From Rhodoferax sp. OV413 (GTDB lineage Bacteria > Pseudomonadota > Gammaproteobacteria > Burkholderiales > Burkholderiaceae_C), in contig CAMAWD010000007.1 of the NCBI GenBank assembly GCA_945861785.1, forward strand, positions 77,730 through 131,781: 54,052 nucleotides of DNA. Direction: 5' to 3'. Below, one piece after another: positions 7,697-52,849 of this stretch. A program made the position numbers and the translations under genes. The notes beneath the pieces were generated by a model that did no database searches, was not told where the DNA came from, and was given only the letters and a program-made list of their open reading frames with translations. Within the stretch, counting starts at the first letter, position 1, and each line of letters opens with the position of its first letter.

Positions 7697-7721
7697 GGGA
7701 CTTTTCGGTAGGGCTGGGGGG

Positions 7722-18877: not shown

Positions 18878-18891
18878 TGGTTTCTCCTGGA

Positions 18892-32097: not shown

Positions 32098-33243
32098 TCA
32101 CACGAACTCGCGCCCGAACAACTCGCGCGCGATGATGAGCTTCTGGATCTGCGGTGTACCGTCGGCGATGATCTGCCCGGCCACGTCGCGCAGGCGCTGC
32201 TCGATGGGCAAGTCCTGCGTCCAGCCATAGTGGCCGTGCAGCACCATGCATTCCTGGATCGCACCCACACACATTTCCGGCACAAAGCCCTTGCAGATTG
32301 CCGCTTCGCTGTTGTGGGGCAGGCCCTGGTCACGCAGCCACAAGGTGCGAAAGCATTGCCACCGCGCCATGGTCAGCCGGGCATGCCATTCGGCGACCGG
32401 GAACGACACCCCCTGGTTTTTCGTGATCGGCTGGCCGAAGGCGATGCGGTTCTTGGTGTAGGTGATGGTTTCTTCGAGCGTGACCTGCGCCGCACCGATA
32501 CACATCAGGCCGATCAACCCGCGGGTGTATTCGAAGGTCTGCATCACGCGCGAGAAGGCACCGTTCTCCGGGCCGATGAGGTTCGCCACCGGTACCCGGA
32601 CGTCGTTGAGAAACATCGACCCGCGCACGATGCCCTTGGAGCCCATGTCCGAATAGGGATGGCGGGTGATTCCGGGTGTGTCGAATGGCACCAGGAACGC
32701 CGAGACGCCGCGTGCACCGGCAGTCGGGTCGGTCTTGGCAAAAACGATGCCGGCGTGGCCTGCCATCAGCAGCGTGACAGCCGACTTTTCGCCGTTCAGG
32801 ATGTAGTGGTCTCCCTGGCGCTCGGCGCGGGTGCGGATCGATGCGGCGTCGGAGCCACCCTGGGGCTCGGTCAGGCACACACAGATCACCTTCTCGCCCG
32901 CGACCATCGGTGGCAGCCAGGTCGCCTTCACCGCCTCGCCCGCGTGTTTGCTGAGCAGGTCGCCGGCGAAGCAGCAGTTGAGGATGCCGTAACAGACGTT
33001 GAAGTCGCCGCGGGCGGTCTCCTCGATGGCCAGCCCGGCCGTGACGCAGTCGAAGTCCTGGCCACCATAGGTTGTGGGCACGCGCATGCCGAACAGGCCC
33101 ATGGCGCCCATTTTTTTCCAGATCTCGGCCGGGAACTGGCCCGTGCGGTCCCAGTGGCTGTAACGGGGCAGCAGTTCCTGGGTGGCGAAGTCGCGCAGCG
33201 ATGCACCGATGATTTTCTGCTCTTCCGAAAAGGCGAAATCCAT
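32098..33243 (-). CDS. Acyl-CoA dehydrogenase with Asp at catalytic-base position
   Basis: This 381-residue FAD enzyme contains MDFAFSEEQK at the start, VCLTEPQGGSDAASIRTR, YILNGEKSAVTLLMAGHAG, NRIAFGQPITKNQGVSFPVAEW and a C-terminal IADGTPQIQKLIIARE. Asp361 occupies the Glu376 site of medium-chain dehydrogenase, as in the 27,747 enzyme. Two Asp-type dehydrogenases could make the first and second double bonds of a ring acyl-CoA. It is encoded between the VOC and thioesterase genes. Confidence 0.9.
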   Translation of the reverse strand: MDFAFSEEQKIIGASLRDFATQELLPRYSHWDRTGQFPAEIWKKMGAMGLFGMRVPTTYGGQDFDCVTAGLAIEETARGDFNVCYGILNCCFAGDLLSKHAGEAVKATWLPPMVAGEKVICVCLTEPQGGSDAASIRTRAERQGDHYILNGEKSAVTLLMAGHAGIVFAKTDPTAGARGVSAFLVPFDTPGITRHPYSDMGSKGIVRGSMFLNDVRVPVANLIGPENGAFSRVMQTFEYTRGLIGLMCIGAAQVTLEETITYTKNRIAFGQPITKNQGVSFPVAEWHARLTMARWQCFRTLWLRDQGLPHNSEAAICKGFVPEMCVGAIQECMVLHGHYGWTQDLPIEQRLRDVAGQIIADGTPQIQKLIIARELFGREFV

Positions 33244-33259
33244 GGGGCCCTTGCGGCGT

Positions 33260-33676
33260 TCAGTCGGGCACCGGGCCGCGCACGAAGCGAGCCACCGCGC
33301 CACGCTGGCACAACTCGATGACGGTGCCATGCCCGTCGCGCTTCAGGACCCAGCCGCGTCGCAGCGGCAGGTTCGGTGTCGGCGGCTGGTCGAACACGCG
33401 CACTCCCTTTGCGCGGAAGTGTGCCAGTGCCGCGTCGAGGTCGTCCACTTCGATCGCGATCACCACGTCACCATGCGCGAGGTCGCCCTTGCCGGAGAAT
33501 TCGACCAGTTCGACGATGGTGCCGCCCACGCCCGGGTCGAAGAAGGCACATCGGATCTGGAGTTCCGGGATGTCGCGCACAACGGGATCACCGAGTCCGA
33601 CGACGGAGCGGTAGAAGTCGATGCCATCTTCGAGCTTGCGCACAAAGATGGCGACGTGGTCGAGTCGGGTGGTCAT
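33260..33676 (-). CDS. VOC-family protein, methylmalonyl-CoA epimerase-like
   Basis: The 138-residue metalloprotein has the vicinal-oxygen-chelate fold: LDHVAIFVRKLEDGIDFY at the start with a metal His, then GTIVELVEFSGKG, and GTVIELCQR with the metal Glu near the end. Relatives include glyoxalase I and methylmalonyl-CoA epimerase; the operon context favours a CoA-ester epimerase or isomerase. Its ATG overlaps the stop of the AliA-like ligase gene (ATGA). Confidence 0.78.
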   Translation of the reverse strand: MTTRLDHVAIFVRKLEDGIDFYRSVVGLGDPVVRDIPELQIRCAFFDPGVGGTIVELVEFSGKGDLAHGDVVIAIEVDDLDAALAHFRAKGVRVFDQPPTPNLPLRRGWVLKRDGHGTVIELCQRGAVARFVRGPVPD

Positions 33677-35349
33677 GGTCCGGGTGCCTTCGTGGTGGTG
33701 GGTGCAAGTGCCTGTTCCTCGCGGATTCGGCTCGCGACGACCGCGCGCAGGATGTCCTTCTTGATCTTGCCGGCTGGCGTCATCGGAAATTCCGCGAAGA
33801 TCTCCAGTCGCTCGGGCAGCTTTTGGCGTGCAATGCCGACCTTGTCCAGGTAGGCCAGGATCTCAGCCAGCGTGGGCGGCTCCGCGCGCGCCACCACGCA
33901 GGCGCAGACGGTTTCGCCCAGCCGTGCATGCGGCATAGCAACCACGGCGACCTCGGCGACTTTCGGATGCCGCAACAGTATGTCCTCGACTTCGCGGGCG
34001 GAAATGTTCTCCCCACCGCGGATGATCAGGTCTTTCTTGCGGCCGGTGATGACCACGGCGCCGTCTGATGTGCGGTACCCCAGGTCACCGGTGTGGAAGT
34101 AGCCCAGTGCATCGAAACTTCGGGCTGTCTCTGCCTGGTCGACGTACCCGACCGATTGTGATGGCCCGCGCGCGATGATCTCGCCCTCGGCGCCGTCGGG
34201 TACGGCGATACCAGCGTCGTCTACAAACAGAACGTCATAACCGCCAATTTTTCCGTCGGTCTCCGCCGCCAGTTCTTCCGTGCCGTTGCCGATGAAACCC
34301 TTGCCTATCATCAGCACCTCGGTTGCGCCATAGACGCGGAATGCCCGGCCATGGGCCAGGTAACTGTTGGCGCGCCGGATCAGGTCTGCAGGAACCGACG
34401 CACCACCGCAGGCAAAGATCCGCAGCGACGGCAGCCTCGTCTGGCGTCTGACCGCAGCGTCGAGCAACTCGGACAGGAAGGGCGTGGCGCTGACGGTCAG
34501 GGCCAATTTGAACCGGTCGATCAACTCGGCCGCCTGATCGGGGTCCCAACGGTCCATCAGTATGGTGGGGGTGCGCCAGGAGAACGGTGATTCCAGGCCC
34601 CACAGGTAACCCGTGACATGGCTGACCGGCGACGGCATCAGGATCGCGCTGCCAGCACCGATCTGCCAGAACTCCATGCACCCTGCCAGAGCGCGGGCCA
34701 GTGTATTGTGGGTGTGCAGCACGCCCTTGGCGCGGCCCGTCGTGCCGGAGGTGTACATCACGAACTTGATCGCATCCGCATCCTGCGCCACCAAAGGCGG
34801 CGGGTGCCCGGTGGGTCGTAGCAGATCTTCATACCGCAGCAGGTCCGCGCCCGCCGCGTCGGCCCGCACCTGCACGACGAATTCGAGCCCCGGCGTGTTT
34901 GCCCGTACCCGCTCGGCCATCGCGGCGTGGTCGAAATTGCGCCACACCGTGGGCACGAACAGCACCCTGGCACCGCAGTCGGCCAGTATTTCGGCGACTT
35001 CCTTGTCGCGGTAGATCGGCACGATGGGGTTCACGACCAGGCCAAGCATCGCAGCGGCGATGTTGACGACCGCTGCTTCGATCCAGTTGGGAAGCTGGAA
35101 GGCGACCACCTGGCCGGGGCGCAAGCCGCGTTCGGCGAGGCCGGCAGCCAGCGCCTGTGCCTCCACCAGGATGTCGCGGTAGCTGATGGCGCGGGCTCCG
35201 TCGCGCAGACAGATTTGATCCGGCACTGCAGCCGCCGCCTCAGTCGCATCGTCAACGATGGTCCGCCCACGCCAGATGCCGGCAGCGCGAAGCCGCGCGG
35301 CCTCCTCATCATTGAACCGGACACTCCATCCGCTCGCGTCTCTGCGCAT
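33673..35349 (-). CDS. AMP-forming CoA ligase, AliA-like
   Basis: This 558-residue ANL ligase resembles cyclohexanecarboxylate-CoA ligase: P-loop MYTSGTTGRAKGVLHTH, GATEVLMIG, YFHTGDLGY, GRKKDLIIRGGENISAREVE and the catalytic Lys in TPAGKIKKD. ATG 35349 is chosen because GAGGAG lies eight bases upstream; the longer frame would cover the divergent promoter. As first gene of an operon with an Asp-type dehydrogenase it likely activates the ring acid. It shares a 115-bp promoter region with the ligase at 35,465. Confidence 0.85.
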   Translation of the reverse strand: MRRDASGWSVRFNDEEAARLRAAGIWRGRTIVDDATEAAAAVPDQICLRDGARAISYRDILVEAQALAAGLAERGLRPGQVVAFQLPNWIEAAVVNIAAAMLGLVVNPIVPIYRDKEVAEILADCGARVLFVPTVWRNFDHAAMAERVRANTPGLEFVVQVRADAAGADLLRYEDLLRPTGHPPPLVAQDADAIKFVMYTSGTTGRAKGVLHTHNTLARALAGCMEFWQIGAGSAILMPSPVSHVTGYLWGLESPFSWRTPTILMDRWDPDQAAELIDRFKLALTVSATPFLSELLDAAVRRQTRLPSLRIFACGGASVPADLIRRANSYLAHGRAFRVYGATEVLMIGKGFIGNGTEELAAETDGKIGGYDVLFVDDAGIAVPDGAEGEIIARGPSQSVGYVDQAETARSFDALGYFHTGDLGYRTSDGAVVITGRKKDLIIRGGENISAREVEDILLRHPKVAEVAVVAMPHARLGETVCACVVARAEPPTLAEILAYLDKVGIARQKLPERLEIFAEFPMTPAGKIKKDILRAVVASRIREEQALAPTTTKAPGP

Positions 35350-35409
35350 CCGTGCATCTCCTCGATAGCGCCACCAGTCGGTTGGATCCGACTGTTGCGC
35401 ACACACATA

Positions 35410-37322: not shown

Positions 37323-38501
37323 ATGGAAAACATACTGGCAAGGTTCGCGCAGGTGGCGGCCCGGCCGCTGGATTACGCGAAGCAGTGGAAGCAGGAAACC
37401 GGTGGGCGGGTGATCGGGATCTTCCCGATGCATTTCCCGGGGGAACTTGCCTATGCGGCCGGTGCCTTGCCAATGGTGGTGCAGGAAGATGACGAGCCTG
37501 TCACTATCGGGCAAAGCCAGGTATTCAGTTTCTATTGCGGCTATAACCGCAGCTTGATCGACCAGGCCTTGCGGGGCGAGTTCGATGTGCTGGACGCGAT
37601 CCTTTTCGGCGACCACTGCGTGCAGCTCCTGGGCACGGCCGACGTGATACGTGCCCACCTGCCCACTAAGCCGATCCTGTTCAACCAGTTGTGTTCCATC
37701 CTGGATGCTGACTGGGCGATGGAAGAAACGCGCGGCACCTTCCGGCAGCTCTGGACCGAGCTTGAGACACTCACCGGCACCAAGATCGAGGAGGCGAGTG
37801 TGCACACCTCGATTCGCCTTTTCAACTGCAACCGCAGCCTGATCCGCCGGCTGTACGACCTGCGACGCACGGGCGAGATCGAACTCTCGGCCCGCAACAT
37901 GCAGCACATCGTCAAGTCGTCGATGGTGATGGACAAGGCGCAACACACGGCCCTGCTGGAACAACTCCTGTCCGGCCTTGTCCATGCCGCGCCCAAGGCG
38001 CGCACGGTTCGCGTCTTCCTGTCCGGCCACATGTGCCACGCACCCAAGCCGGCCCTGCTCGATCTCTTCGAGGATTGCGGCTGCACGGTGGTGGACGACG
38101 ACCTCTACACCGGTTTCCGGTTCATCTTTGCCGACATCGACGAAACCGGCTCCCCTGTCGATGCGCTGGCGTCGTGGTACCTCACACGCAGCCAGAAGGT
38201 GCCATGCCCCACCCGCGCCGTGAAGGGGCTCGACTGGGAGCAGTACCTGCTCGATGCCGTTGCGCAGTCGCGTGCCCAGGGCCTGATCATCCTGATGGCC
38301 AAGTTCTGCGAACCGCACATGTTCTTCTATCCGGAGATCAAGGAAGCCTTCGAGAAACACGGTATCCCGCATCTGCTGGTCGAGACCGAACACGAGGGTG
38401 TGGCGCTCGAGTCGCTCAAGACCCGCGTCGATGCATTCGTTGAAGTTGTCGGACGTCGCGCAGCAGCGGCGCCAGTGGCGCGTATTGGCGCGACCGTTTA
38501 A
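37323..38501 (+). CDS. Benzoyl-CoA reductase/2-hydroxyacyl-CoA dehydratase-type subunit, BcrC/HgdB-like (copy 1)
   Basis: The 392-residue protein belongs to the HgdB/FldC/BcrC family whose heterodimers hold a double-cubane or [4Fe-4S] site for low-potential radical reduction or dehydration of CoA esters. Visible family features: VIGIFPMHFPGELAYAAGALP, the Cys-bearing FYCGYNRS, FGDHCVQLLG, SGHMCHAP, VDDDLYTGFRF and MAKFCEPHMFFYPEIKE. Conserved Cys residues are suitable as cluster ligands. It is followed after 13 bp by its BcrB-like partner. Distinguishing reductase from dehydratase function is not possible from sequence alone. Confidence 0.85.
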   Translation: MENILARFAQVAARPLDYAKQWKQETGGRVIGIFPMHFPGELAYAAGALPMVVQEDDEPVTIGQSQVFSFYCGYNRSLIDQALRGEFDVLDAILFGDHCVQLLGTADVIRAHLPTKPILFNQLCSILDADWAMEETRGTFRQLWTELETLTGTKIEEASVHTSIRLFNCNRSLIRRLYDLRRTGEIELSARNMQHIVKSSMVMDKAQHTALLEQLLSGLVHAAPKARTVRVFLSGHMCHAPKPALLDLFEDCGCTVVDDDLYTGFRFIFADIDETGSPVDALASWYLTRSQKVPCPTRAVKGLDWEQYLLDAVAQSRAQGLIILMAKFCEPHMFFYPEIKEAFEKHGIPHLLVETEHEGVALESLKTRVDAFVEVVGRRAAAAPVARIGATV

Positions 38502-38514
38502 CCAGGAGAACCAC

Positions 38515-39891
38515 ATGATGGAATCGACTCTGCAGACGCTTGCAGACAGGCGGCCGGCCAGCCCGGTGTTCGGCAATGGCGAACGCGCCAACCGTCTCAA
38601 GAGCACGCGTTTTGGCAGCAAGCTGGTCAACGAGTACTGGGAAAACCTGTTCCGTGCCAAGGAGCAAGGCAAGAAGGTGGTCTGGTACAACGGCACCTAC
38701 ATTCCGCCGTTCTTCCATTCGCACGACGTGGCCTGGGTGCATGGTGAAGCCTGGTCGGCCAATCTGGCGGCGCGCCATGACGAGATTCCCGCGCAGCAGG
38801 CTGGCGAGGCGCGTGGTTACGACCGCGAACTCTGCTCCTACGCGCGCACCCACATCGGGCAGGCCTTGCTCGACCGCGAAAAACTCGACAACGGCACACT
38901 GGGTATCGACCCGGCCGGCCCGCGGGCCGAACTGATGCGCAAGCTGCCGCTGCCCGACATGATCATCAACGCCTACCCGTATTGCAGCACCGGCCAGCAG
39001 TGGGACGACATCACCTACCGCATGTTCGGCAAGAAGATCCCGATGTTCACGATCCAGATTCCGCTGCTCTGGGGCGGGCGGCCCGACGCGGGCTATATCC
39101 GCGGTTCGGAGTGGCGCCAGCGCTCGAAGTACGTGGCCGACCAGTTGGTGGGGATGACCAAGTTCATGGAAGAACACACCGGGCGCAAGTTCGACTTCGA
39201 CCGGCTCAGTGAAACCATGGGATTTGTCAAGAAGGCGGCCGAGTTGCGGCTCGAAGCCATGGACCTGTGCACAGCGACCCCGTCGCCTGCGAGTTTCTTC
39301 GACTGGATCGTCAGCATTGCGCCGGTGAATTTCCTACCCGGAGATCAGAACCTGGTGACCTATTTCGAGGGTGTCAAGGCCGAAATCCAGCAGCGCATCG
39401 CGAATGGTGAGGGTGCTGTCAAGGACGAAAAATACCGGCTCTTCTTCGACGGCATGATGAACTGGAACAAGGTCGGCTGGCTGGCTGACAAGTTCGCGGC
39501 TGTCAATGCCTGCGTGGTGGCGGGGCGTTACACCCATATGTCGTTCTGGCAGGAGCCGGATCTGATCGACCTGAAGAGCCCGGTGCTGGGCATGGCACAG
39601 AACTACCTGGTGTGCCCGAACAACCATGGGGCTCCGATCATGATCGGCGAGATCGAGAAGATCTGCGACAAGTTCAATATCGACGGCATGGTGATGCATG
39701 CGTCGCGCACCTGCCGGGGCATGTCCAACTCGCAGTTCCTGATTGCCGATTCGGCCAAGAAACACGGGCGTCAGGCGATGTTCTTCGAAGGCGATGTGGC
39801 CGACGAGTCGTTCTACAAGGACGAGTTGCTCAACACCCGGCTCGAGGCCATGATCGAAACCATGGACGCACGCCGCCGCCTCGTTGCCTGA
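38515..39891 (+). CDS. Benzoyl-CoA reductase/2-hydroxyacyl-CoA dehydratase-type subunit, BcrB/HgdA-like (copy 1)
   Basis: This 458-residue partner of the preceding protein resembles BcrB/BadE. Features are WYNGTYIPPFFHSHDVAWVH, ELCSYARTHIGQ with a cluster-type Cys, NAYPYCSTGQQWDDITYRMF, SIAPVNFLPGDQNLV, CPNNHG, MHASRTCRGMSNSQFLIAD and FFEGDVADESFYKDE. All are typical of catalytic, non-ATPase BCR subunits. The ATG pair at 38515 follows an AGGAG site. No BcrA/BcrD-type ATPase gene follows; a second C/B pair comes next. Confidence 0.85.
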   Translation: MMESTLQTLADRRPASPVFGNGERANRLKSTRFGSKLVNEYWENLFRAKEQGKKVVWYNGTYIPPFFHSHDVAWVHGEAWSANLAARHDEIPAQQAGEARGYDRELCSYARTHIGQALLDREKLDNGTLGIDPAGPRAELMRKLPLPDMIINAYPYCSTGQQWDDITYRMFGKKIPMFTIQIPLLWGGRPDAGYIRGSEWRQRSKYVADQLVGMTKFMEEHTGRKFDFDRLSETMGFVKKAAELRLEAMDLCTATPSPASFFDWIVSIAPVNFLPGDQNLVTYFEGVKAEIQQRIANGEGAVKDEKYRLFFDGMMNWNKVGWLADKFAAVNACVVAGRYTHMSFWQEPDLIDLKSPVLGMAQNYLVCPNNHGAPIMIGEIEKICDKFNIDGMVMHASRTCRGMSNSQFLIADSAKKHGRQAMFFEGDVADESFYKDELLNTRLEAMIETMDARRRLVA

Positions 39892-39966
39892 CCGGCAGCC
39901 GGCTGCATCCAGACGAACACCTGATTCCCGAGGGTCGCGCACGACCTTTCCCCGGAGATTTTTGAT

Positions 39967-41136
39967 ATGCCTGAAGCACAAGACGCCATTACCTCGCTGA
40001 CACGCATTGCGGAGGATCCGCACGCATACGCCACTAGCTGGAAGGAAAAGCACCAGCGTAAGGTCATCGGCACATTTCCGATGAACTTCCCGTCCGAGCT
40101 GGTGCACGCTGCCGGCGCCTTGCCGGTGGTGGTGCAGGACGATCGCGCGCCCATCACGCTGGGCCGGACCCTGATGTACGAGTTCTACTGCGGATACGCC
40201 AGGAGCCTCACCGACCAGGCGGCAACCCGCAAGCTCGGCGTTTTCGATGCGTTCTTTCTGGTGGACCATTGTGTCGCCTTGTTGGGCGCGGTCGATGCCA
40301 TGCGCTTCGAACTGCCGGAGCAGCCGGTGTTCCTCGCCCAATACACAGCGTCGATGGACGAGGAGTGGACACCTCCGGAGGTTCGCAAGAAAGTGGAATC
40401 TCTGCAAACGCAACTGGAGGAACTGTGTGGTGCGACCATCTCGCAAGAGGCGCTGGCCCACAGCATTCGCCTGTTCAACCGCAACCGCCAACTGCTGCGC
40501 GAAGTCTATGACCTGCGGCGGTCCGGCCGTACCCGCATCACATCGGCGCAGATGCAGATGCTGGTCAAGTCCAGCATGGTGATGGACATCGAAGAGCACA
40601 CCGCGATTCTTTCCGGCCTGCTGCGATCGTTGCAGGAGGAGCGCGCGACCAGCCCGAATCTCGTTCGCCTCCATCTGTCGGGTCATTTTTGCCACGGACC
40701 GCGGCCCGAATTGCTGGACATCATCGAGTCCTGCGGTGCGGTGGTGGTCGACGACGATCTCTACACCGGTTTCCGGTACATCTCCACCGACGTTCCCGAG
40801 ACTGGCGACCCGGTCGATGCACTCACCCGCTGGTACTTCGACCGCAACACCAACGTGCCATGTGCGACGCGGGCCCAGAAGAACGTGGACTGGGAGAGTT
40901 ACCTGCTGCAGTCGCTCAAGCACAGCGGCGCGGCAGGGGTGGTCATCCTTATGGCCAAGTTCTGCGAGCCGCACATGTTGTACTACCCTGAATTGCGCAA
41001 GGCGCTGCTTCGCAGCCAGGTGCCACACCTGCTGATCGAGACCGAGCACGAGGGCCTGCCGGCTGAGTCGATCCGGGTCCGGATGGAGGCATTCCTCGAG
41101 CAAATCCGACGCCCGGCCGCGACGGCCGCGGCATAA
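39967..41136 (+). CDS. Benzoyl-CoA reductase/2-hydroxyacyl-CoA dehydratase-type subunit, BcrC/HgdB-like (copy 2)
   Basis: The 389-residue paralogue of the 37,323 product shares long blocks: VIGTFPMNFPSELVHAAGALP, EFYCGYARSLTDQAA, VDHCVALLGAVDAM, LSGHFCHGPRPELLD, VDDDLYTGFRYIS and MAKFCEPHMLYYPEL. By eye roughly half of the residues agree. The putative cluster Cys residues are conserved, so both copies should be competent. GGAG precedes the ATG. The 75-bp gap to the previous gene shows no obvious promoter. Confidence 0.85.
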   Translation: MPEAQDAITSLTRIAEDPHAYATSWKEKHQRKVIGTFPMNFPSELVHAAGALPVVVQDDRAPITLGRTLMYEFYCGYARSLTDQAATRKLGVFDAFFLVDHCVALLGAVDAMRFELPEQPVFLAQYTASMDEEWTPPEVRKKVESLQTQLEELCGATISQEALAHSIRLFNRNRQLLREVYDLRRSGRTRITSAQMQMLVKSSMVMDIEEHTAILSGLLRSLQEERATSPNLVRLHLSGHFCHGPRPELLDIIESCGAVVVDDDLYTGFRYISTDVPETGDPVDALTRWYFDRNTNVPCATRAQKNVDWESYLLQSLKHSGAAGVVILMAKFCEPHMLYYPELRKALLRSQVPHLLIETEHEGLPAESIRVRMEAFLEQIRRPAATAAA

Positions 41137-41168
41137 CTTCCACCCGCCGACACCAGGAGCACCAGCCC

Positions 41169-42530
41169 ATGTCACTCACAGTTGAACAAACTATCCCGAA
41201 GCCTGCGACAACCGCAGGGACCGCCGCACTGTCGAACCGCCTCTCCAGCACCAAGGATGGTGGCAAGATGGTCAAAGACTACTGGGACCGCATCTTCTCG
41301 GCGCGCGAGCGTGGAGCGCAGGTCGTCTGGTACAACGGTGCCGCGTTGAACCCGCTGTTCCAGGCCGCCGGCATCGAGTGGTGCCATGGCGAGGCGTTCG
41401 GCGCTCGGCTGGCTGCGATGCACCTGGAGGGGCCTGCACAGTTGGCCGGGGAGGAGTACGGCTACATCAACGAGTTGTGTTCCTATGCCCGCACGACGCT
41501 GGGCTGCGCAGTGTTGACGCAGCGGGGGGTCGAGTATGAAGAGGAGGGGGGTGTGGTCGACCGCGACACGCTGGCGGGCCGCCTTCCGCCGCCGGACTTC
41601 TTCGTCAACGCCTATGCGGGCTGCAGCACGGGCCAGCAATGGGACGAGATCTCCTACCGCCTGTTCAAGAAACAGTTGCCCTTCTTCAAGGTCTCGTATC
41701 CCCTGCTGTGGGGCAACAAGCCCGATGCGGGTTACCTGCGCGGCCAGGAATGGGAGAGTGCGTCACGTTATGTGGCAAGCCAGTTGCACAAGTTGATCGA
41801 GTTCCTGGAGGTGCAGACCGGTCGCAAGTTCAACTGGGAGCTGTTGCGCGAGTCGATGCATTACATCAAGCGCGCCGCCGAGTTGCGGCTGGAAGGGATG
41901 GCGCTGTGCAGGGCGCGGAACTCGCCGGCCACCTACTGGGACTGGATCGCGTGTATTGCCCCGATCAACTTCCTGCCCGGCAACCAGGCGTTGGTGGACT
42001 ATTTCGCGGGAGTCAAGAAAGAGATCGAGCAGCGTCTGAAGGACGGCGTCACCGCGCTGCCCAACGAGCGCTACCGGCTAGCCTTCGATGGCATCATGAA
42101 CTGGAACAAGGTGGGCTGGCTGGCGAACAAGTTCGCGCAGCATGACGCCGCGGTGATGGTCGGGCGGTATACCCACAACTCGTTCTGGCACGAGCCCCAG
42201 CTGATCGACGTGGACGATCCGATCCTGGGCATGGCACAGCACTATCTGCTCTGCCCGTCGAACCACAGCGCCAAAACCATGGGTGAATTGTTGCTCCGGG
42301 ATTGCGAGAGCCATGGGATCGACGGGATCGTCTTCCATGCCACCCGGACCTGCCGCTCGTTCACCAACGGCCAGATGGTCATGTCGCAGATGGCGCAACG
42401 CGCGGGTATCCAGACCATGTTCTTCGAGGGCGATGTCGCAGACGCAGCCTTCTACAAGGACGCCATGCTCGAGAGCCGCCTGGAGGCCATGCTCGAGACC
42501 ATCGACGTTCGGCGCGATCAGCGGCGATGA
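41169..42530 (+). CDS. Benzoyl-CoA reductase/2-hydroxyacyl-CoA dehydratase-type subunit, BcrB/HgdA-like (copy 2)
   Basis: The 453-residue paralogue of the 38,515 product keeps VVWYNGAALNPLFQAAGIEWCHGE, ELCSYARTTLGCAV, NAYAGCSTGQQWDEISYRLF, CIAPINFLPGNQALVDYFAG, FHATRTCRSFTNGQMVMSQ and FFEGDVADAAFYKDAM. Differences concentrate in the N-terminal third near the substrate-binding part, which suggests a different substrate or a specialised second heterodimer. It ends the C-B-C-B block; the next genes have their own motif-bearing promoter. Confidence 0.85.
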   Translation: MSLTVEQTIPKPATTAGTAALSNRLSSTKDGGKMVKDYWDRIFSARERGAQVVWYNGAALNPLFQAAGIEWCHGEAFGARLAAMHLEGPAQLAGEEYGYINELCSYARTTLGCAVLTQRGVEYEEEGGVVDRDTLAGRLPPPDFFVNAYAGCSTGQQWDEISYRLFKKQLPFFKVSYPLLWGNKPDAGYLRGQEWESASRYVASQLHKLIEFLEVQTGRKFNWELLRESMHYIKRAAELRLEGMALCRARNSPATYWDWIACIAPINFLPGNQALVDYFAGVKKEIEQRLKDGVTALPNERYRLAFDGIMNWNKVGWLANKFAQHDAAVMVGRYTHNSFWHEPQLIDVDDPILGMAQHYLLCPSNHSAKTMGELLLRDCESHGIDGIVFHATRTCRSFTNGQMVMSQMAQRAGIQTMFFEGDVADAAFYKDAMLESRLEAMLETIDVRRDQRR

Positions 42531-42684: not shown

Positions 42685-43482
42685 ATGAACCAAGCGGTGT
42701 CACGCCAGGTGTTGCGACTCGAAGAAGCGAGCGTGCTGATCACTGGCGGAACCTCGGGCGTTGGCCTGGCAACAGCGATCGAATTTGCACGTGCAGGTGT
42801 GCCGCGCATTGGTATCAATGGCCGCGACGCGGCACGCGGTGAGCGCGCACGGGCCGCGGTGCTGGCCCAGGTCCCTGCGGCACGGGTCGAGTTCTTCGCG
42901 GGCGACTGCAACGATGCGGGCCAGGCGCGCGGCGTCTGCGAGGGGGCGCGGGCAGCGTTCGGAAGTGTCGACGTGCTGGTGAACTCCACCGTCGGCCCGT
43001 ACGGCCCCAAGCTGTTTCACAACATCGACTTTGAAGAGCTTCAGACGATCGTTCTCAAGCAGTTGATGGCACCCATATTGACAAGCCGGCTCGTGTGGCC
43101 GTGGATGCGCGAGCGCAAGATGGGCGTGATCGTCAATATCGCGTCTGACGCCGGCAAGGTCGCCACACCTGGAGAGTCGGTGCTCGGCGCCGCAATGGCC
43201 GGGATCATCATGTTCTCCCGTGGGCTTGCCATCGAAGGCAAGCGCGACGGCATCCGTGTCAACTGCCTGACGCCCTCGATCATCGAGGGCACGATCACCT
43301 ATGGCAACGTCATGGCAGACGAGTTCTCCGGCAAGCTCTTCGGCAAGGCGGTCAAGATGGCCCAGCTCGGTCTGGTGCAGCCCGAGGACCTGGCGGCGAT
43401 GATCGTGTTTCTGGCCGGGCCGCACGGAGCCAGGGTCACCGGCCAGGCGATCAGCGTGAACGGTGGCATTTCCGCCGCCTGA
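42685..43482 (+). CDS. SDR-fold protein lacking catalytic Tyr and Lys
   Basis: The 265-residue protein has a normal SDR cofactor motif (TGGTSGVGLATAIEFAR) and the conserved Ser in NIASDAG (Ser154). The active-site segment, YxxxK in true SDRs, reads ESVLGAAMAG: Tyr is Leu167 and Lys is Met171. NNAG is also changed (VNSTVG). The closest relatives in this window are BadH-like enzymes. It should bind a nucleotide but probably cannot perform the usual hydride chemistry; a structural or regulatory role is possible. GGAAGAAG precedes the ATG. Confidence 0.85.
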   Translation: MNQAVSRQVLRLEEASVLITGGTSGVGLATAIEFARAGVPRIGINGRDAARGERARAAVLAQVPAARVEFFAGDCNDAGQARGVCEGARAAFGSVDVLVNSTVGPYGPKLFHNIDFEELQTIVLKQLMAPILTSRLVWPWMRERKMGVIVNIASDAGKVATPGESVLGAAMAGIIMFSRGLAIEGKRDGIRVNCLTPSIIEGTITYGNVMADEFSGKLFGKAVKMAQLGLVQPEDLAAMIVFLAGPHGARVTGQAISVNGGISAA

Positions 43483-44342: not shown

Positions 44343-45230
44343 ATGCCGTACCAGTCGGTCTTCAAATCCGGTTTGTTCACCGGGCAGACCATCATCGTCA
44401 CCGGTGGCGGTAGCGGCATCAGTCGTTGCACGGCGCACGAACTCGCCGCCTTGGGCGCGACGGTCGTGCTGATGGGGCGCAATGCCGAGAAACTGGCACT
44501 GGTCGAGGCTGAGATCCGCGAGGACGGCGGTGTTGCCTTGTCGCAGGTCTGTGACATCCGTGAAGAAGCCATGGTGGTCAACGCGATCGATGCCGTGCTT
44601 CAAAAGCAGGGCCGCATCGACGCGCTGGTCAACAACGCCGGTGGCCAGTACCGCACCCCGATGAAGACCATCAGCACCAAGGGCTTCGAGGCCGTGGTGC
44701 GCAACAACCTCACCGGTGGGTTCATCTTCATGCGCGAGGTCTACAACCGCTGGATGGAAGCCAATGGCGGTGCAATCGTGAACATCATCGCCGACATTTG
44801 GCATGGCTGGCCCGAGTTTGCGCATTCCGGCGCAGCACGTGGTGGCATGCTGACCTTGACCGAGACGGCCGCCTGTGAATGGTCGGCCGCCGGAGTGCGA
44901 GTGAACTCCGTCGCGCCAGGTGGTATTGCGTCCAGCGGTTTCGATACCTATGCACCCGAGATCCAGGACCGCCTGTTCGAATACGCCGAGCGCGTGCCAA
45001 TGCAGCGTTTCGGGACGGAGGCCGAGGTCGCCGCCGCGATCGTGTACCTGCTGTCGCCAGCAGCGGCCTACATCACGGGCACTTGCCTGCGCGTGGATGG
45101 CGGTGCACCGAATGCACGCACCACCTGGAATCTGCAGGCGCACAAGAACAGCCCGCCCTTCGAGGGCTTCCACCGTTCCCGCATGCCCGAGGTCTTGGTG
45201 AGAGGTCGTCGGGGTGCCACATCCGGCTGA
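44343..45230 (+). CDS. SDR, trans-2-enoyl-CoA/dienoyl-CoA reductase-like
   Basis: The 295-residue protein has IIVTGGGSGISRCTAHELAALG, CDIREE, LVNNAGGQYRTPMKTIS and a catalytic region WPEFAHSGAARGGMLTLTETAACEW, characteristic of PECR/DECR-type reductases, which lack the normal YxxxK and act on enoyl-CoA esters. The C-terminus extends about 35 residues past the usual TGTCLRVDGG. It likely works on unsaturated acyl-CoA intermediates of the pathway. Confidence 0.83.
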   Translation: MPYQSVFKSGLFTGQTIIVTGGGSGISRCTAHELAALGATVVLMGRNAEKLALVEAEIREDGGVALSQVCDIREEAMVVNAIDAVLQKQGRIDALVNNAGGQYRTPMKTISTKGFEAVVRNNLTGGFIFMREVYNRWMEANGGAIVNIIADIWHGWPEFAHSGAARGGMLTLTETAACEWSAAGVRVNSVAPGGIASSGFDTYAPEIQDRLFEYAERVPMQRFGTEAEVAAAIVYLLSPAAAYITGTCLRVDGGAPNARTTWNLQAHKNSPPFEGFHRSRMPEVLVRGRRGATSG

Positions 45231-45286: not shown

Positions 45287-45822
45287 GTGAACACGTCTTC
45301 CCACCTCGACGTTTCCCATCTGCAGGCTGACACATCGCAGCGTCTGCTGGACTGCAGCCTCGGGGACTTGTTGCGTCGCAATGCTGCGGAAGTGCCCGAT
45401 CGCATCGCTCTGGTGGAGGGTATTGCCGATGCAACGCGATGCCGATGTTTCATATTGCTGGCGACGTGGTGGCGGAGATCGGCGCGTATTCCAGGCGGGG
45501 CACCTTTGTATTGATGCCCGAGTTCAATCCCGGATTGATGCTGGAACCGATAGAGACCGAGCGCTGCATGGCCACGTTGATCGTGGCTGCGGTGATTCTT
45601 CCCAAGGACGTGCGCAATCCGCCTTCGGTCGACCACCTGTTCCAGCATTGCCGCGAGAACCTCTCACCACAGAAGACGCCCGCACTCTGGTTCTTCGTGG
45701 ACCAGTATCCGATGGCGTCCACTGGCAAGATCCAGAAGGCTGAACGCATGACGCTGATTGCCGACAAGAAGATCCTGCCAGTTGAATGGGCCCGCTCACA
45801 GGCGCGGTCCTCCCATGCTTGA
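45287..45822 (+). pseudogene. Acyl-CoA ligase remnant with two internal deletions
   Basis: Three pieces match the 546-residue ligase at 35,465. The N-terminal piece (from GTG 45287, RLLDCSLGDLLRR, VPDRIALVEGIAD) lies in one frame. The next piece begins MPMFHIAG in another frame, then PGLMLEPIE. The C-terminal piece reads AAVILPKDVRNPPS, TPALWFFVDQYPMASTGKIQK. About 180 residues are missing at the first junction and about 190 at the second. The ATP-binding P-loop and hinge motifs are gone, so it cannot be an active ligase. Confidence 0.8.
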
Positions 45823-45843
45823 GCCCTTGACCGAGGTCCGTAT

Positions 45844-46638
45844 ATGACGCCCAGCCACTCCGAACGCCGTGTTGCCCTGATCACTGGAGCCGCCGGGGGG
45901 CTGGGAGGCGCCATCGCCCAGGAACTTGGAGACAAGGGTTTCGATCTGGTACTGCACGATCTGGTGGTCAACGACACGCTGCGCCAACTCTGCGCCACCC
46001 TGGAGTCTGGCGGCATCCGTGCCCGAGCGCTCGCGCAGGATATTGCCCAGGTGGATGAATTGCCGGCCTTTGTCGACGAAGCACATGGCGTTTTCGGGCG
46101 GCTCGATTGCCTCGTCAACAACGCCGGTGTGTCGGTGCTGTCGCGCGGTGACATTCTCGATGTATCGCCTGAAAGCTTCGACCGCTGCATCGCGGTCAAT
46201 CTGCGCGCCCAGTTCTTTCTGACCCAGGCCGCAGCCCGACGCATGGTGGCTGAACCAGCCACCGTAACGCCCGACAAGCGGCGTTCCATCATCACGATCA
46301 CCACGGTCGCGTTGGACCACATGGTGGCAACGGAATTGGCGGAATACTGCATCTCCAAGGCCGGCTTGTCCCATATGGTCAAGCATTTCGCCACCCGCCT
46401 GGTGACCGAAGGCATTGACTGCTACGAGGTTCGGCCCGGAATGATGTCGACCACCATGACCCGTTCATCGAGCGCCAAGTACCAGGCGCTGATTGAGTCC
46501 GGGTTTGTGCCGGCGCGGCGCTGGGGCGAACTGTCGGATGTCGGGCGCGCCATCGCGGCATTGGCCGACGGCTGTTTCAACTATGCCGTGGGCCAGACGA
46601 TCTCCATCGACGGCGGGATGGCCCTCAAGGCGTTCTGA
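45844..46638 (+). CDS. SDR oxidoreductase
   Basis: This 264-residue SDR of the 3-ketoacyl-ACP reductase type has ALITGAAGGLGGAIAQELG, LVNNAGVSVLSRGDI, AEYCISKAGLS with Tyr and Lys four residues apart, RPGMMSTTMTR and GQTISIDGGMAL. It is expected to be catalytically active on a ketoacyl or ring ketone substrate. It is the last gene of the plus-strand block and converges on the second Liv transporter. Confidence 0.85.
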   Translation: MTPSHSERRVALITGAAGGLGGAIAQELGDKGFDLVLHDLVVNDTLRQLCATLESGGIRARALAQDIAQVDELPAFVDEAHGVFGRLDCLVNNAGVSVLSRGDILDVSPESFDRCIAVNLRAQFFLTQAAARRMVAEPATVTPDKRRSIITITTVALDHMVATELAEYCISKAGLSHMVKHFATRLVTEGIDCYEVRPGMMSTTMTRSSSAKYQALIESGFVPARRWGELSDVGRAIAALADGCFNYAVGQTISIDGGMALKAF

Positions 46639-46689
46639 GATTGTTCCGCCTGCCCGTCCGAACTGGCGTGTACGTTGGCGACGCGGCGG

Positions 46690-47433
46690 TCAGTGTGCCG
46701 GCTTGCTGGATTCGGTGGGCCGCCCGAGGTACGAGTGTTGCAAGGTCGCATCGCCGCGCAGGCTGTTGCCAGGGCCTTCTGCGCGCACATGGCCGACCGC
46801 CATGACGTAGCCGTAATCGGCGATCTGCAATGCCTCGTCGGCATGTTGTTCCACCAGCAGGATCGTCAGGCCGTCCCGCCGCAGCGTTTGCAGCACCTCG
46901 AAAATGCGTTCCACGACCATCGGCGCAAGGCCCAGCGACGGCTCGTCGAGCAGCAGCAATTTTGGGTCGGCCATCAGGGCACGCCCGATGGCCAGCATCT
47001 GCTGTTCGCCGCCACTCATGGTTCCGGCGCGCTGGTTGACGCGGTCTTTCAGGATCGGAAACAGCGCGTAGACGTAATCGAGTCGGCGTTTGTAATGGGC
47101 CTTGGCGTCGCTGCCGCGCGCCAGGCGGTGAAATCCGAGGTCCAGGTTTTCGCCGACAGTCAGCGGTGCAAACACCTGCCGGCCTTCTGGCACCTGCACG
47201 ATGCCCAGTTCGACCACTGCCGGTGGTGCCAGCGCAATGATGTCCTTGTCCTCAAAGCGGATCGAGCCAGAGTTGGCTACCACCAGGCGCGAGATGGTGT
47301 TGATCAGGGTGCTTTTCCCGGCGCCGTTTGCGCCGACCACCGCAACGATCGCGCCTCGCGGCACGTGGATCGACAGGGAGTGCAGCGCGTCGGAGCCCTT
47401 GTACCCGGCAAACAGTTTTTCAGTGCGTAGCAT
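46690..47433 (-). CDS. livF: Second Liv-type ABC importer, ATPase LivF
   Basis: The 247-residue ATPase has Walker A GANGAGKST, VPEGRQVFAPLTVGENL, signature TMSGGEQQMLAIGRAL and Walker B LLLLDEPSLGLAP. It overlaps the livG stop by 14 bp and lacks the basic tail of the first LivF. It is the last gene of the four-gene livHMGF set. Confidence 0.9.
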   Translation of the reverse strand: MLRTEKLFAGYKGSDALHSLSIHVPRGAIVAVVGANGAGKSTLINTISRLVVANSGSIRFEDKDIIALAPPAVVELGIVQVPEGRQVFAPLTVGENLDLGFHRLARGSDAKAHYKRRLDYVYALFPILKDRVNQRAGTMSGGEQQMLAIGRALMADPKLLLLDEPSLGLAPMVVERIFEVLQTLRRDGLTILLVEQHADEALQIADYGYVMAVGHVRAEGPGNSLRGDATLQHSYLGRPTESSKPAH

Positions 47434-48220
47434 GGGTGGCTTTCCGGCCTATGTAGGCGGCAATCACTTTTTCGTCGTTGCGAACCGCGTCCGGCGTACC
47501 GTCGGCGATTTTGGCGCCTCGGTCCATCACGACGATGCGGTCACATGCAGTCATGATGAAGTCGATGTCGTGTTCTACCACCAGCATCGCCATTCCGCGC
47601 ATCTTGAGCGCAAGGATCATGTTCAGGAGGTTGCCTGTTTCAGCATCGTTCAGCCCGGCGGCCGGCTCGTCCATCATGAGCAGGGCGGGGTCGCTGGCGA
47701 GTGCGCGGGCAATGTCGACCAAGCGCAACTGGCCCAGCGTGAGGTGACCGATGGCGTCTGCGGCACGGCTGGCCAGGCCGACAAATTCGAGCAACTCCAT
47801 CGCACGGTCTCGCGCCTTGCGCTCCTGTGCTGCCAACGCGCGGCTGGAAAACAGTGCGCGTAGTATGCCGTCCGGAAACTTCGGATGCAGTCCGAGCAGC
47901 ACATTCTCCAGAACGGTCATTCCGTGGAAGAGCCGCACAATCTGGAAGGTGCGGGCCATTCCCATCGGGCTGCGGGTGTGGGGCGGCGCATCGGTGACGC
48001 GCTGGTCCCGGAAGTAGATGTCGCCGGACGTCACCGGCCGCACGCCGGTGATCAGGTCGAACATGGTGGATTTGCCCGCGCCGTTGGGGCCGATCAGCCC
48101 CGTGACCTGGCCGGTGAGCGCCTCGAAGGAGACCTCGTTCACGGCGACGAGCCCGCCAAACCGCCGTACCGCCTTGTCGATCTTGAGGATGGCCCGCTGG
48201 CCGTTGGTTGCAACTGTCAT
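47420..48220 (-). CDS. livG: Second Liv-type ABC importer, ATPase LivG
   Basis: The 266-residue ATPase has Walker [45 protein letters not shown] and [13 protein letters not shown] 48220 is used because the family begins there (MTVATNGQ); a longer frame would overlap livM. Confidence 0.9.
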
Positions 48221-48233
48221 GTGCCGGCCTCCG

Positions 48234-49217
48234 TCAGCGTTCGACCGTGCCGCGTGCACCGGTGCCGAACAACCTGCGCCAGCGCAGGTTTTCCAGCAGG
48301 CCTGACAGACCGTGCGGCAGGAAGATCAGGAAGAGCAGGATGAAGGCGCCGTAGACCAGTGTCTCCAGTTCCCCGAACGAGACCAGCACCTGCGGTAGCA
48401 GTACAACAACGATCGAACCCAGAACCGGGCCAAAACGTGTGCCAAGGCCGCCCACCACGGCGATGGTCAGGACGCTCACCAGGATGCGGAAATCACTCAT
48501 ACTGGGGTCGACGCGCAGGCTCATCATCGAAAAACACATGCCGGCGATACCTGCTATCACCGCAGCGAGAACGAACATGCGCAACTTGTAGTTGGTGACA
48601 GGAACGCCCAGTGCGGAGGCGGCCGTCTCATCGTCACGGATGGCTTGCAACGCGCGCCCTATGTGGCTGCGGATGATGAAGTCGTGCAACAGCAGGACCA
48701 ATCCCAGTAAGACCAGGATCACGTAATAGATGGCCACCTTGCTCAGTGGCGCGTCGCCGAACACCAGTGGCGGCACCGCCAGACCAGTGGATCCCCCGGT
48801 GAAGTCGATCCAGCGGATCACCACGCCATAAAAGATGAGTCCGAAGGCGAGGGTGGCCATGGCCAGGTAGTGGGTTCGCAAGCGTAGCAGCGGAATGCCG
48901 ATCACCAGTGCCACGGTGGCGCACAGGCCGATGCTTGCCAGCATGGCCCAGACGGGGGACCACTGCGCTTTCAATTGCAACAGCGAAAAGGCATACGCGC
49001 CGATCGCGAAGAAGGCCTGCTGACCGAGTGATATCTGGCCGGTATACCCATAGAGCAGATTGAATCCCATGGACAGGATGGCGTAGATCCCGATCAGCAT
49101 CACCAGTCGCAGCTGGAAACCGCTGGTGATGAAAGTTGGCAGCACTGCGGCTATCGCCAGCACCACGAATACCGGTGTGATGGATTTGCGTTGCGGTGCG
49201 GTCGACATGGTGCTCAT
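48234..49217 (-). CDS. livM: Second Liv-type ABC importer, permease LivM
   Basis: This 327-residue permease has [73 protein letters not shown] and a C-terminal [13 protein letters not shown]. Its ATG overlaps the livH stop (ATGA). Confidence 0.92.
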
Positions 49218-50095
49218 CGCTTTTCCGCCTCGTAGTCGCCGAGCAGGCCATAAGGACGCACAAACAACACCAGCAGGATCAACAGGAAGATGGCTGGCTC
49301 GGCATACAGGCTGGTGCCGTAACCTGCCATGAGCGACTCCATCATACCGATGGCAATGCCGCCGGCCGCCGCTGCGAACGGGCTGCCGAGGCCGCCCAGG
49401 ATAGCGGCCATGAATCCCTTGACCGTCAGGATCAGACCCATGCCGATCTGGCCACCCAGGATGGGCCCAACCAGGATGCCCGACATGCTGCTGACCAGCG
49501 CGCTGAAAAGAAAGCTGAACTGCACGATGCGCTCGGAGCGGATGCCCATCAGCAGGGCAACCCGCGGGTTGACGCCGGTGGCTCGGACCGACAAGCCGAA
49601 GCGCGTGCGGTAGAGGATGAACCAGGTCACTGCCAGGCAGGCCGCGAACAGGGCGATGATCGCGAGTTGCTGGGAATTGGTGATCAGGACCCCCAGTTTC
49701 ATCGGCTCGAGCGAAAACAGGGTAGGCACGAACTGCTGGTCCGGACCCCAGATCTGCAGCGCTGCACCGAAAATGACGATCGCAGCACCCAAGGTCCCCA
49801 TCATGATGGTCAGCGGGGGCGCGCCACGGCGCACCAAGGGCCGGTACACCCCGTAATCCAACCCCAGGGCGACCAGCATCACCGCCACCAGCACCAAGGG
49901 CACGGCAAGCCCCAGCGGGACCGCGGCGGTCACAGAAAACAGGATGGCGCACATGGCGCCCAGCATCACGAAGTCGCCCTGCGCAAAGTTGATGACGCGG
50001 CTGGAACCGTAAATGATTGACAGCGACAGCCCGATCAGGCCATAGACGCTGCCATTCGTGATTCCGGCAAGCAGAAGATAACCAAGTTTTTCCAT
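49214..50095 (-). CDS. livH: Second Liv-type ABC importer, permease LivH
   Basis: This 293-residue permease has VINFAQGDFVMLGAM, VRATGVNPRVALLMGI, GFMAAILGGLGSPFAAAAGG and about eight hydrophobic segments. It is the first of livHMGF. A 170-bp gap to the binding-protein gene shows no strong terminator, so transcription from upstream may continue into it. Confidence 0.92.
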   Translation of the reverse strand: MEKLGYLLLAGITNGSVYGLIGLSLSIIYGSSRVINFAQGDFVMLGAMCAILFSVTAAVPLGLAVPLVLVAVMLVALGLDYGVYRPLVRRGAPPLTIMMGTLGAAIVIFGAALQIWGPDQQFVPTLFSLEPMKLGVLITNSQQLAIIALFAACLAVTWFILYRTRFGLSVRATGVNPRVALLMGIRSERIVQFSFLFSALVSSMSGILVGPILGGQIGMGLILTVKGFMAAILGGLGSPFAAAAGGIAIGMMESLMAGYGTSLYAEPAIFLLILLVLFVRPYGLLGDYEAEKR

Positions 50096-50265
50096 TTGGC
50101 AGACTCAAGTGTCAACGCGGCTGATGCACGCAGCAATGTCGCGCGCGCCGGGTTCCGATCTAACAGACATGCGACAGCGACAGGCCACAGCTCGAATGGC
50201 GGCGGGCTGGTCACCGCCTGGCACCGGCCGCGCCACAGGGTGGGCAACCGGCGCATCTCCGACAC

Positions 50266-51504: not shown

Positions 51505-51587
51505 GTTGTCTCCTCGGGGCGAAAATGCCCGCTAGATCGAATGAATGGGATGCTGTCGCAGCGACAGAATTTGTACCTTTATTTATC

Positions 51588-51604
51588 GTACTCTACCTTA
51601 CTGT
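51588..51604. promoter_or_regulatory. Candidate shared operator near second livK
   Basis: GTACTCTACCTTACTGT matches the left half and the CTA core of the motif found at five other sites. It lies about 85 bp upstream of livK. Confidence 0.35.
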
Positions 51605-51753
51605 ACACCGCTTAACTTGAATCCTACCCTACGAAAGTTCTTTGCGCAAGCGCTCAAACCCGCCCCCACGAGCAGATCGTCTCGTGCCGCCGGTTGCTGC
51701 CGGCGTGGGCACCCCAATTGCTTAGGGTATTCCCGAGTGCGTCCATCAATATC

Positions 51754-51770
51754 GTACGGTATATTATTAG
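51754..51770. promoter_or_regulatory. Candidate shared operator near AttH-like gene
   Basis: GTACGGTATATTATTAG keeps the GTAC, TA and TATTA parts of the motif and lies about 80 bp upstream of ATG 51848. It is a weaker match than the 35,410 and 42,635 sites. Confidence 0.3.
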
Positions 51771-51847
51771 TTGCTTGCGTACCGTCTGTTGTGCGATTCT
51801 GGTTCAACCTCGGTGCCGACGCACCACCCCCTGTGAGGGCGTATTCA

Positions 51848-52839: not shown

Positions 52840-52849
52840 GGGCCAGGGC

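Follow-up and report, generated by a model that had tools for sequence, protein, structure and literature searches.

Putative HAD-like radical acyl-CoA enzyme pairs that may share one activase in Rhodoferax sp. OV413 and related carriers

In Rhodoferax sp. OV413, a 54,052-nucleotide stretch of DNA (assembly GCA_945861785.1, contig CAMAWD010000007.1, positions 77,730 to 131,781; hereafter the window) encodes four consecutive proteins of the benzoyl-CoA reductase/2-hydroxyacyl-CoA dehydratase (BCR/HAD) superfamily in the order C-B-C-B, and an earlier interpretation made from the letters alone (the sequence-only reading) found no ATPase nearby; this raised the question of whether one activator, encoded at another place, serves both heterodimers or whether they form a distinct arrangement without one. 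The best explanation of the data as a whole, to which we give a probability of about 0.5, is that the pairs are ATP-primed, HAD-like radical enzymes acting on alicyclic acyl-CoAs and sharing one HadI-like activase. The four genes themselves were confirmed: C1, B1, C2 and B2 lie on the plus strand with intergenic gaps of 13, 75 and 32 bases, all four match PF06050 (HGD-D; curated cut-off 28.4 bits; Table 1), and all four belong to the superfamily by sequence score and, for B2 and C2, by fold in Foldseek. By best alignment, C1, C2 and the C subunit of a third pair (C3) fall with HadC, BzdN and MbdN, and B1, B2 and B3 fall with HadB, MbdO and BzdO. B1 and B2 are 53% identical and C1 and C2 are 50% identical, and the subunits of pair 1 are nearer to the third pair (60% and 55%) than to pair 2. 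Public annotation of such proteins reads '2-hydroxyacyl-CoA dehydratase family'.

The source genome (7.1 Mb in 202 contigs, 97.87% complete, 4.55% contamination) holds six PF06050 matches, namely the four window genes and one C-B pair on another contig, C18. A genome-wide search for BadF-type ATPases (PF01869, E 0.001), which had been proposed as a check, returned a single match, an activase nearest to HadI that directly follows this third C-B pair. The window ends where its own contig, C7, ends, and a contig of a related Burkholderiales metagenome-assembled genome (MAG; CAIMVC010000051.1, loci L011 and L025) has the same gene order and orientation across the junction of C7 and C18, running from pair 1 and pair 2 through matches to window positions 45647-49719 and 50660-54045 to the start of C18, pair 3 and the activase. 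The comparison covers these two loci, with a 931-base stretch between them lying outside it, and an SDR (short-chain dehydrogenase/reductase) gene at window 44343-45230 and a C18 stretch at approximately 682-2453 of locus L008 are unmatched in the MAG. Adjacency of C7 and C18 by chance was rejected given the 149-base exact overlap and the collinearity with the MAG. C18 continues the chromosome of the window, and the apparent absence of an activator is a window-edge effect; on the joined sequence, pair 3 lies 18 kb and the activase 21 kb after B2, the latter 9.5 kb beyond the window end. The statement that no ATPase is encoded nearby thus holds for the window but, C18 being its continuation, fails for the chromosome, and what lies just outside is one activase, not the BcrA/BcrD pair that had been considered. 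Relative to the MAG, in which the ortholog of B1 is 94% identical, dN/dS is 0.027-0.056 for the four window genes and 0.014-0.056 for the six pair genes plus the activase, with dS at 1.15-1.90, near saturation, in both sets; decaying gene copies were rejected on the values for the window genes. The window contains no match to an exact sigma-70 pattern, the expected number also being 0.

Relatives were collected by a scan of genome contigs in which 128 stretches matched, yielding 92 relatives, of which the best 80 correspond to 71 loci. Among the listed loci, proteobacterial carriers include Paracoccus, Mesorhizobium, Novosphingobium and Sphingopyxis, and actinobacterial carriers, which have pair type 2 only, include Rhodococcus, Nocardia, Gordonia, Amycolatopsis, Pseudonocardia and Nocardioides; the sequences of Zhongshania and Hydrocarboniphaga cluster with those of the actinobacterial kind, and the carrier records comprise many isolates and several MAGs. 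Within a sample of the organism's own class the family is rare, occurring in 0 of 368 other genomes at E 1e-60; the BcrB cut-off was reached in 10 of 369 genomes of that class, and among 150 genomes of the organism's own family nine others gave weak matches at 23-28% identity and nothing stronger. Pairs and activases were counted in 22 chosen carrier genomes, reached via 22 of the 71 loci, with seven lower-scoring PF06050 matches (75-144 bits; G154, G166, G167 and G171; on other contigs) left out of the pair counts. The 12 proteobacterial genomes (G150-G161) hold 28 pairs and 11 activases over the cut-off, Paracoccus alkenifer, in which pair 2 lies near a contig end, being the one proteobacterium without such an activase; the nine actinobacterial genomes hold 12 pairs and 12 activases, and Zhongshania holds one of each. 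Pair types at typed loci occur as 1, 2 and 3 together, 1 with 2, 1 with 3, or 2 alone, and the QY30 plasmid carries all three pairs and one activase within approximately 40 kb. In the activase tree, the 15 proteobacterial sequences cluster together (SH-aLRT 90) irrespective of having pair 2 or pair 3 as their neighbour, which matches the prediction of a shared activator. These data support a many-to-one activator arrangement in proteobacteria. Moreover, a single activator that would be common to the three pairs is supported by one activase for three pairs in this genome, by the recurrence of the ratio in proteobacteria and by the single activase group; the alternative of a distinct arrangement without an activator is not supported.

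Trees were built from 84 B and 82 C family rows (two of 93 C rows were dropped for length, and some rows are one gene from two loci), with HadB/C, MbdO/N, BzdO/N (BzdO partial) and 10 BcrB or nine BcrC proteins as outgroups. All B and all C rows stand apart from the outgroups (SH-aLRT 99 and 96, respectively), the outgroup branches being very long, and from their sequences all pairs appear to form one deep clade apart from the sampled Had, Bzd, Mbd and Bcr enzymes, so that neither window pair falls inside a known clade of this sample, to which HgdAB, FldBC and LcdAB do not belong. In the B tree, the B1 type, the B2 type and the nine B3 rows are each supported groups, and B2 groups with actinobacterial B proteins; in the C tree, support for the C2 type as a group is 0, and one C3-labelled row stands beside C1 rows. 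The pair of Azoarcus sp. KH32C lies outside the groups of the B tree. This plasmid-borne set (L100 13744-17248) is a divergent C-B-activase set, 48% to B2, near DUF1302, DUF1329 and MMPL genes.

The cluster-type cysteines that had been read as conserved in all four window proteins were borne out by the 84-row B and 82-row C alignments, and the ligands are equally conserved across all three pair types. In B1 numbering, Cys107, Cys157, Cys400 and Glu78 are present in 83, 84, 84 and 83 of the B rows, the missing ones being gaps, and this set, with its three predicted cluster ligands and Glu, matches Cys95, Cys128, Cys380 and Glu65 of the BzdO catalytic cluster as given in the accessible part of PMC11971306. 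Where BzdO has His131, 84/84 B rows have Gly and 10/10 BcrB have Phe; because BcrB has Phe there, the Gly counts only against a BZD-type enzyme. In the C subunit, Cys72, Cys99, Cys295 and Cys329 are present in 82/82 rows. Four of the six BzdN double-cubane cysteines (the six assigned from sequence) are kept, the same four as in HadC, with non-Cys residues at the other two positions (N/T/A/S/P at position 75, and either Pro35 or Met36 according to the alignment used), and the C subunit thus lacks the six-Cys set of a BZD-type [8Fe-9S] cluster. Cys238 of C, present in 81/82 rows, is common to BcrC (9/9) and MbdN, and is not found in HadC or BzdN.

The activase is over the TIGR00241 cut-off and, among solved activators, is most similar to HadI (221.1 bits), followed by MbdQ (202.5), HgdC (200.9), DCCP-R (154.6) and MbdP (129.4). 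Its stretches RCAAGTG and MCATFAE contain Cys residues, invariant in 63/63 rows, which we take to bridge the activase cluster. The family model ends at residue 254 of the 318-residue protein and the HadI match at residue 265; beyond both lies a tail with two Cys residues, present in 62 and 61 of 63 aligned rows, which are spaced CxxxC in 14 of the 60 rows of at least 285 amino acids and CxxC in the actinobacterial rows viewed. At this position, CxxxC occurs in 0/9 rows of BCR ATPases, and the two rows viewed stop before it. The tail Cys pair, not seen in the solved activators compared, is perhaps an adaptation to oxygen.

By gene content, the system resembles a HAD, with a predicted two-subunit enzyme and one activase type. 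A class I BCR needs two different ATPase subunits, and a two-ATPase benzoyl-CoA reductase was rejected given one PF01869 match in a genome that is 97.9% complete. The four window proteins score 74-165 bits for the class I BCR equivalog models (TIGR02260/02263 and TIGR03190/03191) versus cut-offs of 421-487 (B1, for example, reaches 105.4 of 486.55 bits), and far below the double-cubane family cut-offs. Among three solved relatives (BzdO partial), 74/84 B rows are nearest to HadB, and HadB is the first Foldseek match of the B2 model by E-value and by target-length TM (0.88-0.89 vs 0.78-0.81 for BzdO/MbdO); for the C2 model, BzdN and HadC are about equal.

Genes around the pairs were counted as homologs of at least 40% identity in 73 related loci (46 of the actinobacterial set and 27 proteobacterial, with L100 left out; several loci come from one genome in cases, and many are cut by contig ends), and the features are collected in Table 1.

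Table 1. Positions of the pair genes, the contig join, the activase and neighbouring features (window coordinates unless a locus is named; bit scores are given with the model cut-off where available)
Feature	Position	Strand	Details
C1, C-type (HadC/BcrC-like) subunit, pair 1	37323-38501	+	PF06050 234.2 bits; Cys 72, 99, 295, 329 conserved
B1, B-type (HadB/BcrB-like) catalytic subunit, pair 1	38515-39891	+	PF06050 170.0 bits; Cys107, 157, 400, Glu78 conserved
C2, C-type subunit, pair 2	39967-41136	+	PF06050 224.3 bits; AlphaFold model pLDDT 90.2
B2, B-type catalytic subunit, pair 2	41169-42530	+	PF06050 168.3 bits; model pLDDT 84.5
149-base exact overlap, C7 end and C18 start	53904-54052	.	Sequence identity and collinearity with MAG loci L011/L025
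Pair 3 on C18, C subunit	L008 ~7070-8230		
Pair 3 on C18, B subunit	L008 8268-9605		
Sole activase, on C18	L008 9634-10590		63537-64493 in joined window coordinates
SDR oxidoreductase, most constant neighbour	42685-43482	+	Homolog in 60/73 loci
Acyl-CoA ligase upstream of C1	35429-37105	+	Homolog in 55/73 loci; no equivalog cut-off reached
Second acyl-CoA ligase (fatty-acid/cyclohexanecarboxylate ligase-like)	33673-35406	-	PRK06087 407.9 of 736 bits; TIGR03208 397.0 of 792.3 bits; homolog in 1/73 loci
Acyl-CoA dehydrogenase, AliB-like	32098-33249	-	TIGR03207 391.0 of 575.35 bits; homolog in 22/73 loci
Acyl-CoA dehydrogenase close to AliB (cyclohexanecarboxyl-CoA dehydrogenase)	27747-28895	+	TIGR03207 547.7 of 575.35 bits
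BadH-like SDR (2-hydroxycyclohexanecarboxyl-CoA dehydrogenase family)	18892-19662	-	Best family TIGR03206, 330.3 of 431.2 bits
BadI-like ring hydrolase (2-ketocyclohexanecarboxyl-CoA hydrolase family)	18080-18922	-	TIGR03210 413.7 of 467.6 bits
Liv-type ABC (ATP-binding cassette) transporter genes, possibly acid uptake	46690-51504	-	LivF-like 249.7 of 441 bits; permeases and binding protein recognised by eye

The suggestion that the region handles an alicyclic acyl-CoA is supported by the AliB-, BadH- and BadI-like window genes, which lie 8 to 24 kb from pair 1 and are each below the equivalog cut-off; for the BadI-like gene, TIGR03210 is ahead of menB TIGR01929 (323.6 of 342.7 bits). CaiB-type CoA transferases have homologs in 27/73 loci, and a homolog (49%) lies divergently upstream of C3 here, with no NCBIfam model match at 1e-40; the CaiB-kind transferase beside C3 is presumably of family III, to which HadA and FldA also belong. 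Of the Liv-type transporter, livF has homologs in 14/73 loci and the binding protein in 8/73. Of the 46 actinobacterial-set loci, 33 have a PaaX-type regulator, 14 a MenB/BadI-like hydrolase and nine a P450 with a ferredoxin. The P450 and 2Fe-2S ferredoxin genes were noted near the pairs of L032, L036, L037, L040, L045, L055, L061, L072 and L073; against the PDB, the P450 of L032 is nearest to P450tol and then P450-terp. The remaining eight share 64-93% identity with the L032 protein, and these genes may point to a ring methyl group being oxidised before the radical step. A protein with DUF7064/DUF7065 stands beside an APH-type phosphotransferase at window 51694-54052, with homologs of both in L025 and L037. 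A molybdopterin oxidoreductase, a possible redox partner, was observed near pair 3 (L008:16468-18660); in Sphingopyxis, annotation places one next to pair 2 (L099:19445-21607). No ferredoxin or dedicated electron donor was noticed beside the pairs, no profile search having been aimed at either; a 2-oxoacid:ferredoxin oxidoreductase alpha subunit over the cut-off is encoded elsewhere in the genome and is a possible electron source. The organism is probably facultative, because a respiratory narG, full-length and over the cut-off (C7:55075-58989), lies on the contig of the window, approximately 19 kb before its start; NarK-like and NarX/NarQ-like genes upstream of the window (L010:1297-7084) are below the cut-offs. 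An AliA-like (cyclohexanecarboxylate-CoA) ligase on C18 (L008:731-2413; 735.2 of 792.3 bits) was dropped as evidence for the pathway, since the MAG lacks it at that site and the 73 loci hold no homolog of at least 40%.

The genes, cluster ligands, pair-to-activase ratio, linkage and tree position were directly observed, and the following scheme is built on them. Each C-B pair would be a heterodimeric iron-sulfur enzyme of the BCR/HAD radical family with its own deep lineage, and the single HadI-like activase beside pair 3 would serve all three pairs. The activase would be a homodimer whose subunits are bridged by a [4Fe-4S] cluster; it would take an electron from reduced ferredoxin and, with ATP, fire it into the C-subunit cluster, from where it would pass to the [4Fe-4S] cluster with an open site in B. 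At this site, an acyl-CoA ester supplied by the linked ligases or a CoA transferase would become a ketyl radical and lose its alpha-hydroxyl to give an enoyl-CoA, a dehydration rather than a reduction, following the HAD mechanism and electron recycling described in the accessible part of PMC8473912. A dehydratase recycles the electron, so that a single activase could suffice for more than one enzyme. The reaction products would enter the AliB-BadH-BadI-like ring-cleavage set of the same region, which makes hydroxylated alicyclic acids the likely substrates; steroid, quinate, toluene and terpineol compounds were also weighed as candidate substrates.

Several results weigh against this explanation. 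No HAD or BCR equivalog cut-off was reached; the HadB and HadC equivalogs (NF052455 and NF052456) gave 111-160 bits versus 700-750, a failure that excludes only that enzyme because the models cover one substrate. The B-family profile scores the 10 BcrB at 130-148 bits and HadB at 141, and the C-family profile scores the nine BcrC at 200-222 and HadC at 202. The C rows are split among HadC (33), MbdN (26) and BzdN (23 of 82); searched alone, B2 finds MbdO (81 bits) slightly over HadB (78) and C2 finds MbdN (129) slightly over HadC (124), C1 and C2 both score slightly higher for BcrC than for HadC, and over query length the TM of the B2 model is equal for HadB and MbdO (0.78-0.79). Beyond the subunits, three of the nine actinobacterial genomes (G166:C23, G167:C137 and G171:C12) hold an extra lower-scoring PF06050 pair with no activase over the cut-off on the contig, the ferredoxin oxidoreductase is over the cut-off in 6/13 carriers tested and no more, MenB/BadI-like genes (at least 40% to the R. 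ruber query) are absent from the flanks of 27/27 proteobacterial loci, and the AliA-like ligase is absent from that site in the MAG and has no homolog of at least 40% in the 73 loci. Altogether, sequence and fold give no clear split between dehydratase and reductase. The odds that the family works like a HAD are about one half, and it is filed neither as HAD nor as BCR, because BcrB/C and HadB/C have similar profile scores and the single searches slightly favour MbdO and MbdN.

It is unlikely, though by no means negligible, that the pairs are class-I-BCR-like reductases of aryl-CoA or conjugated (di)enoyl-CoA that feed the AliB-BadH-BadI-like set, with the activase homodimer replacing BcrA/BcrD. 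A reductase would fit the family profiles being as close to BcrB and BcrC as to HadB and HadC, the Cys238 shared with BcrC and MbdN, and the bad/ali-type genes of the window, since such genes form part of the route that meets benzoyl-CoA breakdown in Rhodopseudomonas (accessible part of PMC9795900). The P450 beside 9/46 actinobacterial-set loci, P450tol/P450-terp-like in the one case compared with the PDB, could begin the conversion of a ring methyl group into a ring carboxylic acid. One ATPase in the genome speaks against a reductase, as does the possession by aerobes of oxygenases for aromatic acids, and the Gly at the His131 position together with the incomplete double-cubane Cys set speaks against one of the BZD type. 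Very improbable is a role of the activase for pair 3 alone, with pairs 1 and 2 activation-free as, for example, lyases or sulfur-transfer proteins: nothing activase-like adjoins pairs 1 and 2 in this genome, and the one-domain relative TudS is a sulfur-transferring enzyme (accessible part of PMC11971306), but the activase follows pair 2 in actinobacteria and in Paracoccus solventivorans, and the ligands are as well conserved in these pairs as in pair 3. Activator-free chemistry for pairs 1 and 2 was rejected on the former ground.

A further possibility, compatible with the others and credible although we would not wager on it, is an ordinary anaerobic system expressed during nitrate respiration or in anoxic niches, its carriage by aerobes reflecting microaerobic use. 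The narG gene and, below their cut-offs, the NarK- and NarX/NarQ-like genes upstream of the window are in keeping with this, and we take the Paracoccus carriers to be denitrifiers; however, the family is conserved in Rhodococcus, Nocardia, Gordonia, Amycolatopsis and Pseudonocardia, which are generally regarded as aerobes. Moreover, Rhodococcus and Aromatoleum employ bad/ali-type genes in the presence of oxygen (accessible parts of PMC5906575 and PMC9795900).

Compared with known systems, the family resembles HadBC with HadI ((R)-2-hydroxyisocaproyl-CoA dehydratase; 3O3M, 4EHT) in having two subunits, a B subunit with three cluster Cys and the Glu, one activase and, at some loci, a CaiB-type CoA transferase; among solved proteins it is also the closest in sequence to the activase and to most B rows, and it is the best B2 Foldseek match by a small margin. 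It differs in an identity of 22-24% to HadB/HadC among the fold matches, a separate deep clade, its occurrence in aerobes, the extra conserved Cys238 in C, the Cys-bearing activase tail and, in proteobacteria, several pairs per activase. With the class I BCRs (BcrCBAD, BzdNOPQ and MbdONPQ) it shares the superfamily, comparable profile scores and bad/ali-type genes in the region, but those enzymes need two different ATPase subunits where one is found here, and their equivalog cut-offs are far off. DCCP with DCCP-R has a single activase partner and the same fold; unlike the two dissimilar subunits with an incomplete Cys set seen here, DCCP is homodimeric with double-cubane clusters (accessible part of PMC11971306). 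The bad/ali cyclohexanecarboxylate pathway is echoed in the AliB-, BadH- and BadI-like genes of the window, but in the accessible part of PMC9795900 its five enzymes, AliA, AliB, BadK, BadH and BadI, include no BCR/HAD enzyme, and the word 'dehydratase' is not used in the main text available from that source.

No publication on such a clade was found in the literature searched, a limited search with most subscription journals outside its coverage. Characterised relatives are extremely oxygen-sensitive, and this kind of enzyme is known mainly from oxygen-free habitats; the surprise is the home of the family in Rhodococcus, Nocardia, Gordonia and Mesorhizobium. The lasting finding is that radical enzymes of an oxygen-sensitive type form a widespread subfamily in unexpected organisms, with a many-to-one activator arrangement in proteobacteria. 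Tentatively, and at somewhat less than even odds, these would be an uncharacterised, widespread clade of ATP-primed radical acyl-CoA enzymes that serves alicyclic or terpenoid acid breakdown in aerobic or facultative bacteria, in which two or three specialised proteobacterial heterodimers share one activase and the Cys tail may help the protein cope with oxygen. The conservation of the clade in such bacteria, its cluster ligands intact, challenges, in a testable manner, the expectation of where these radical enzymes occur; the clade would also be an example from nature in which one activator supplies several radical enzymes, and it provides a candidate for a missing step in aerobic alicyclic acid catabolism.

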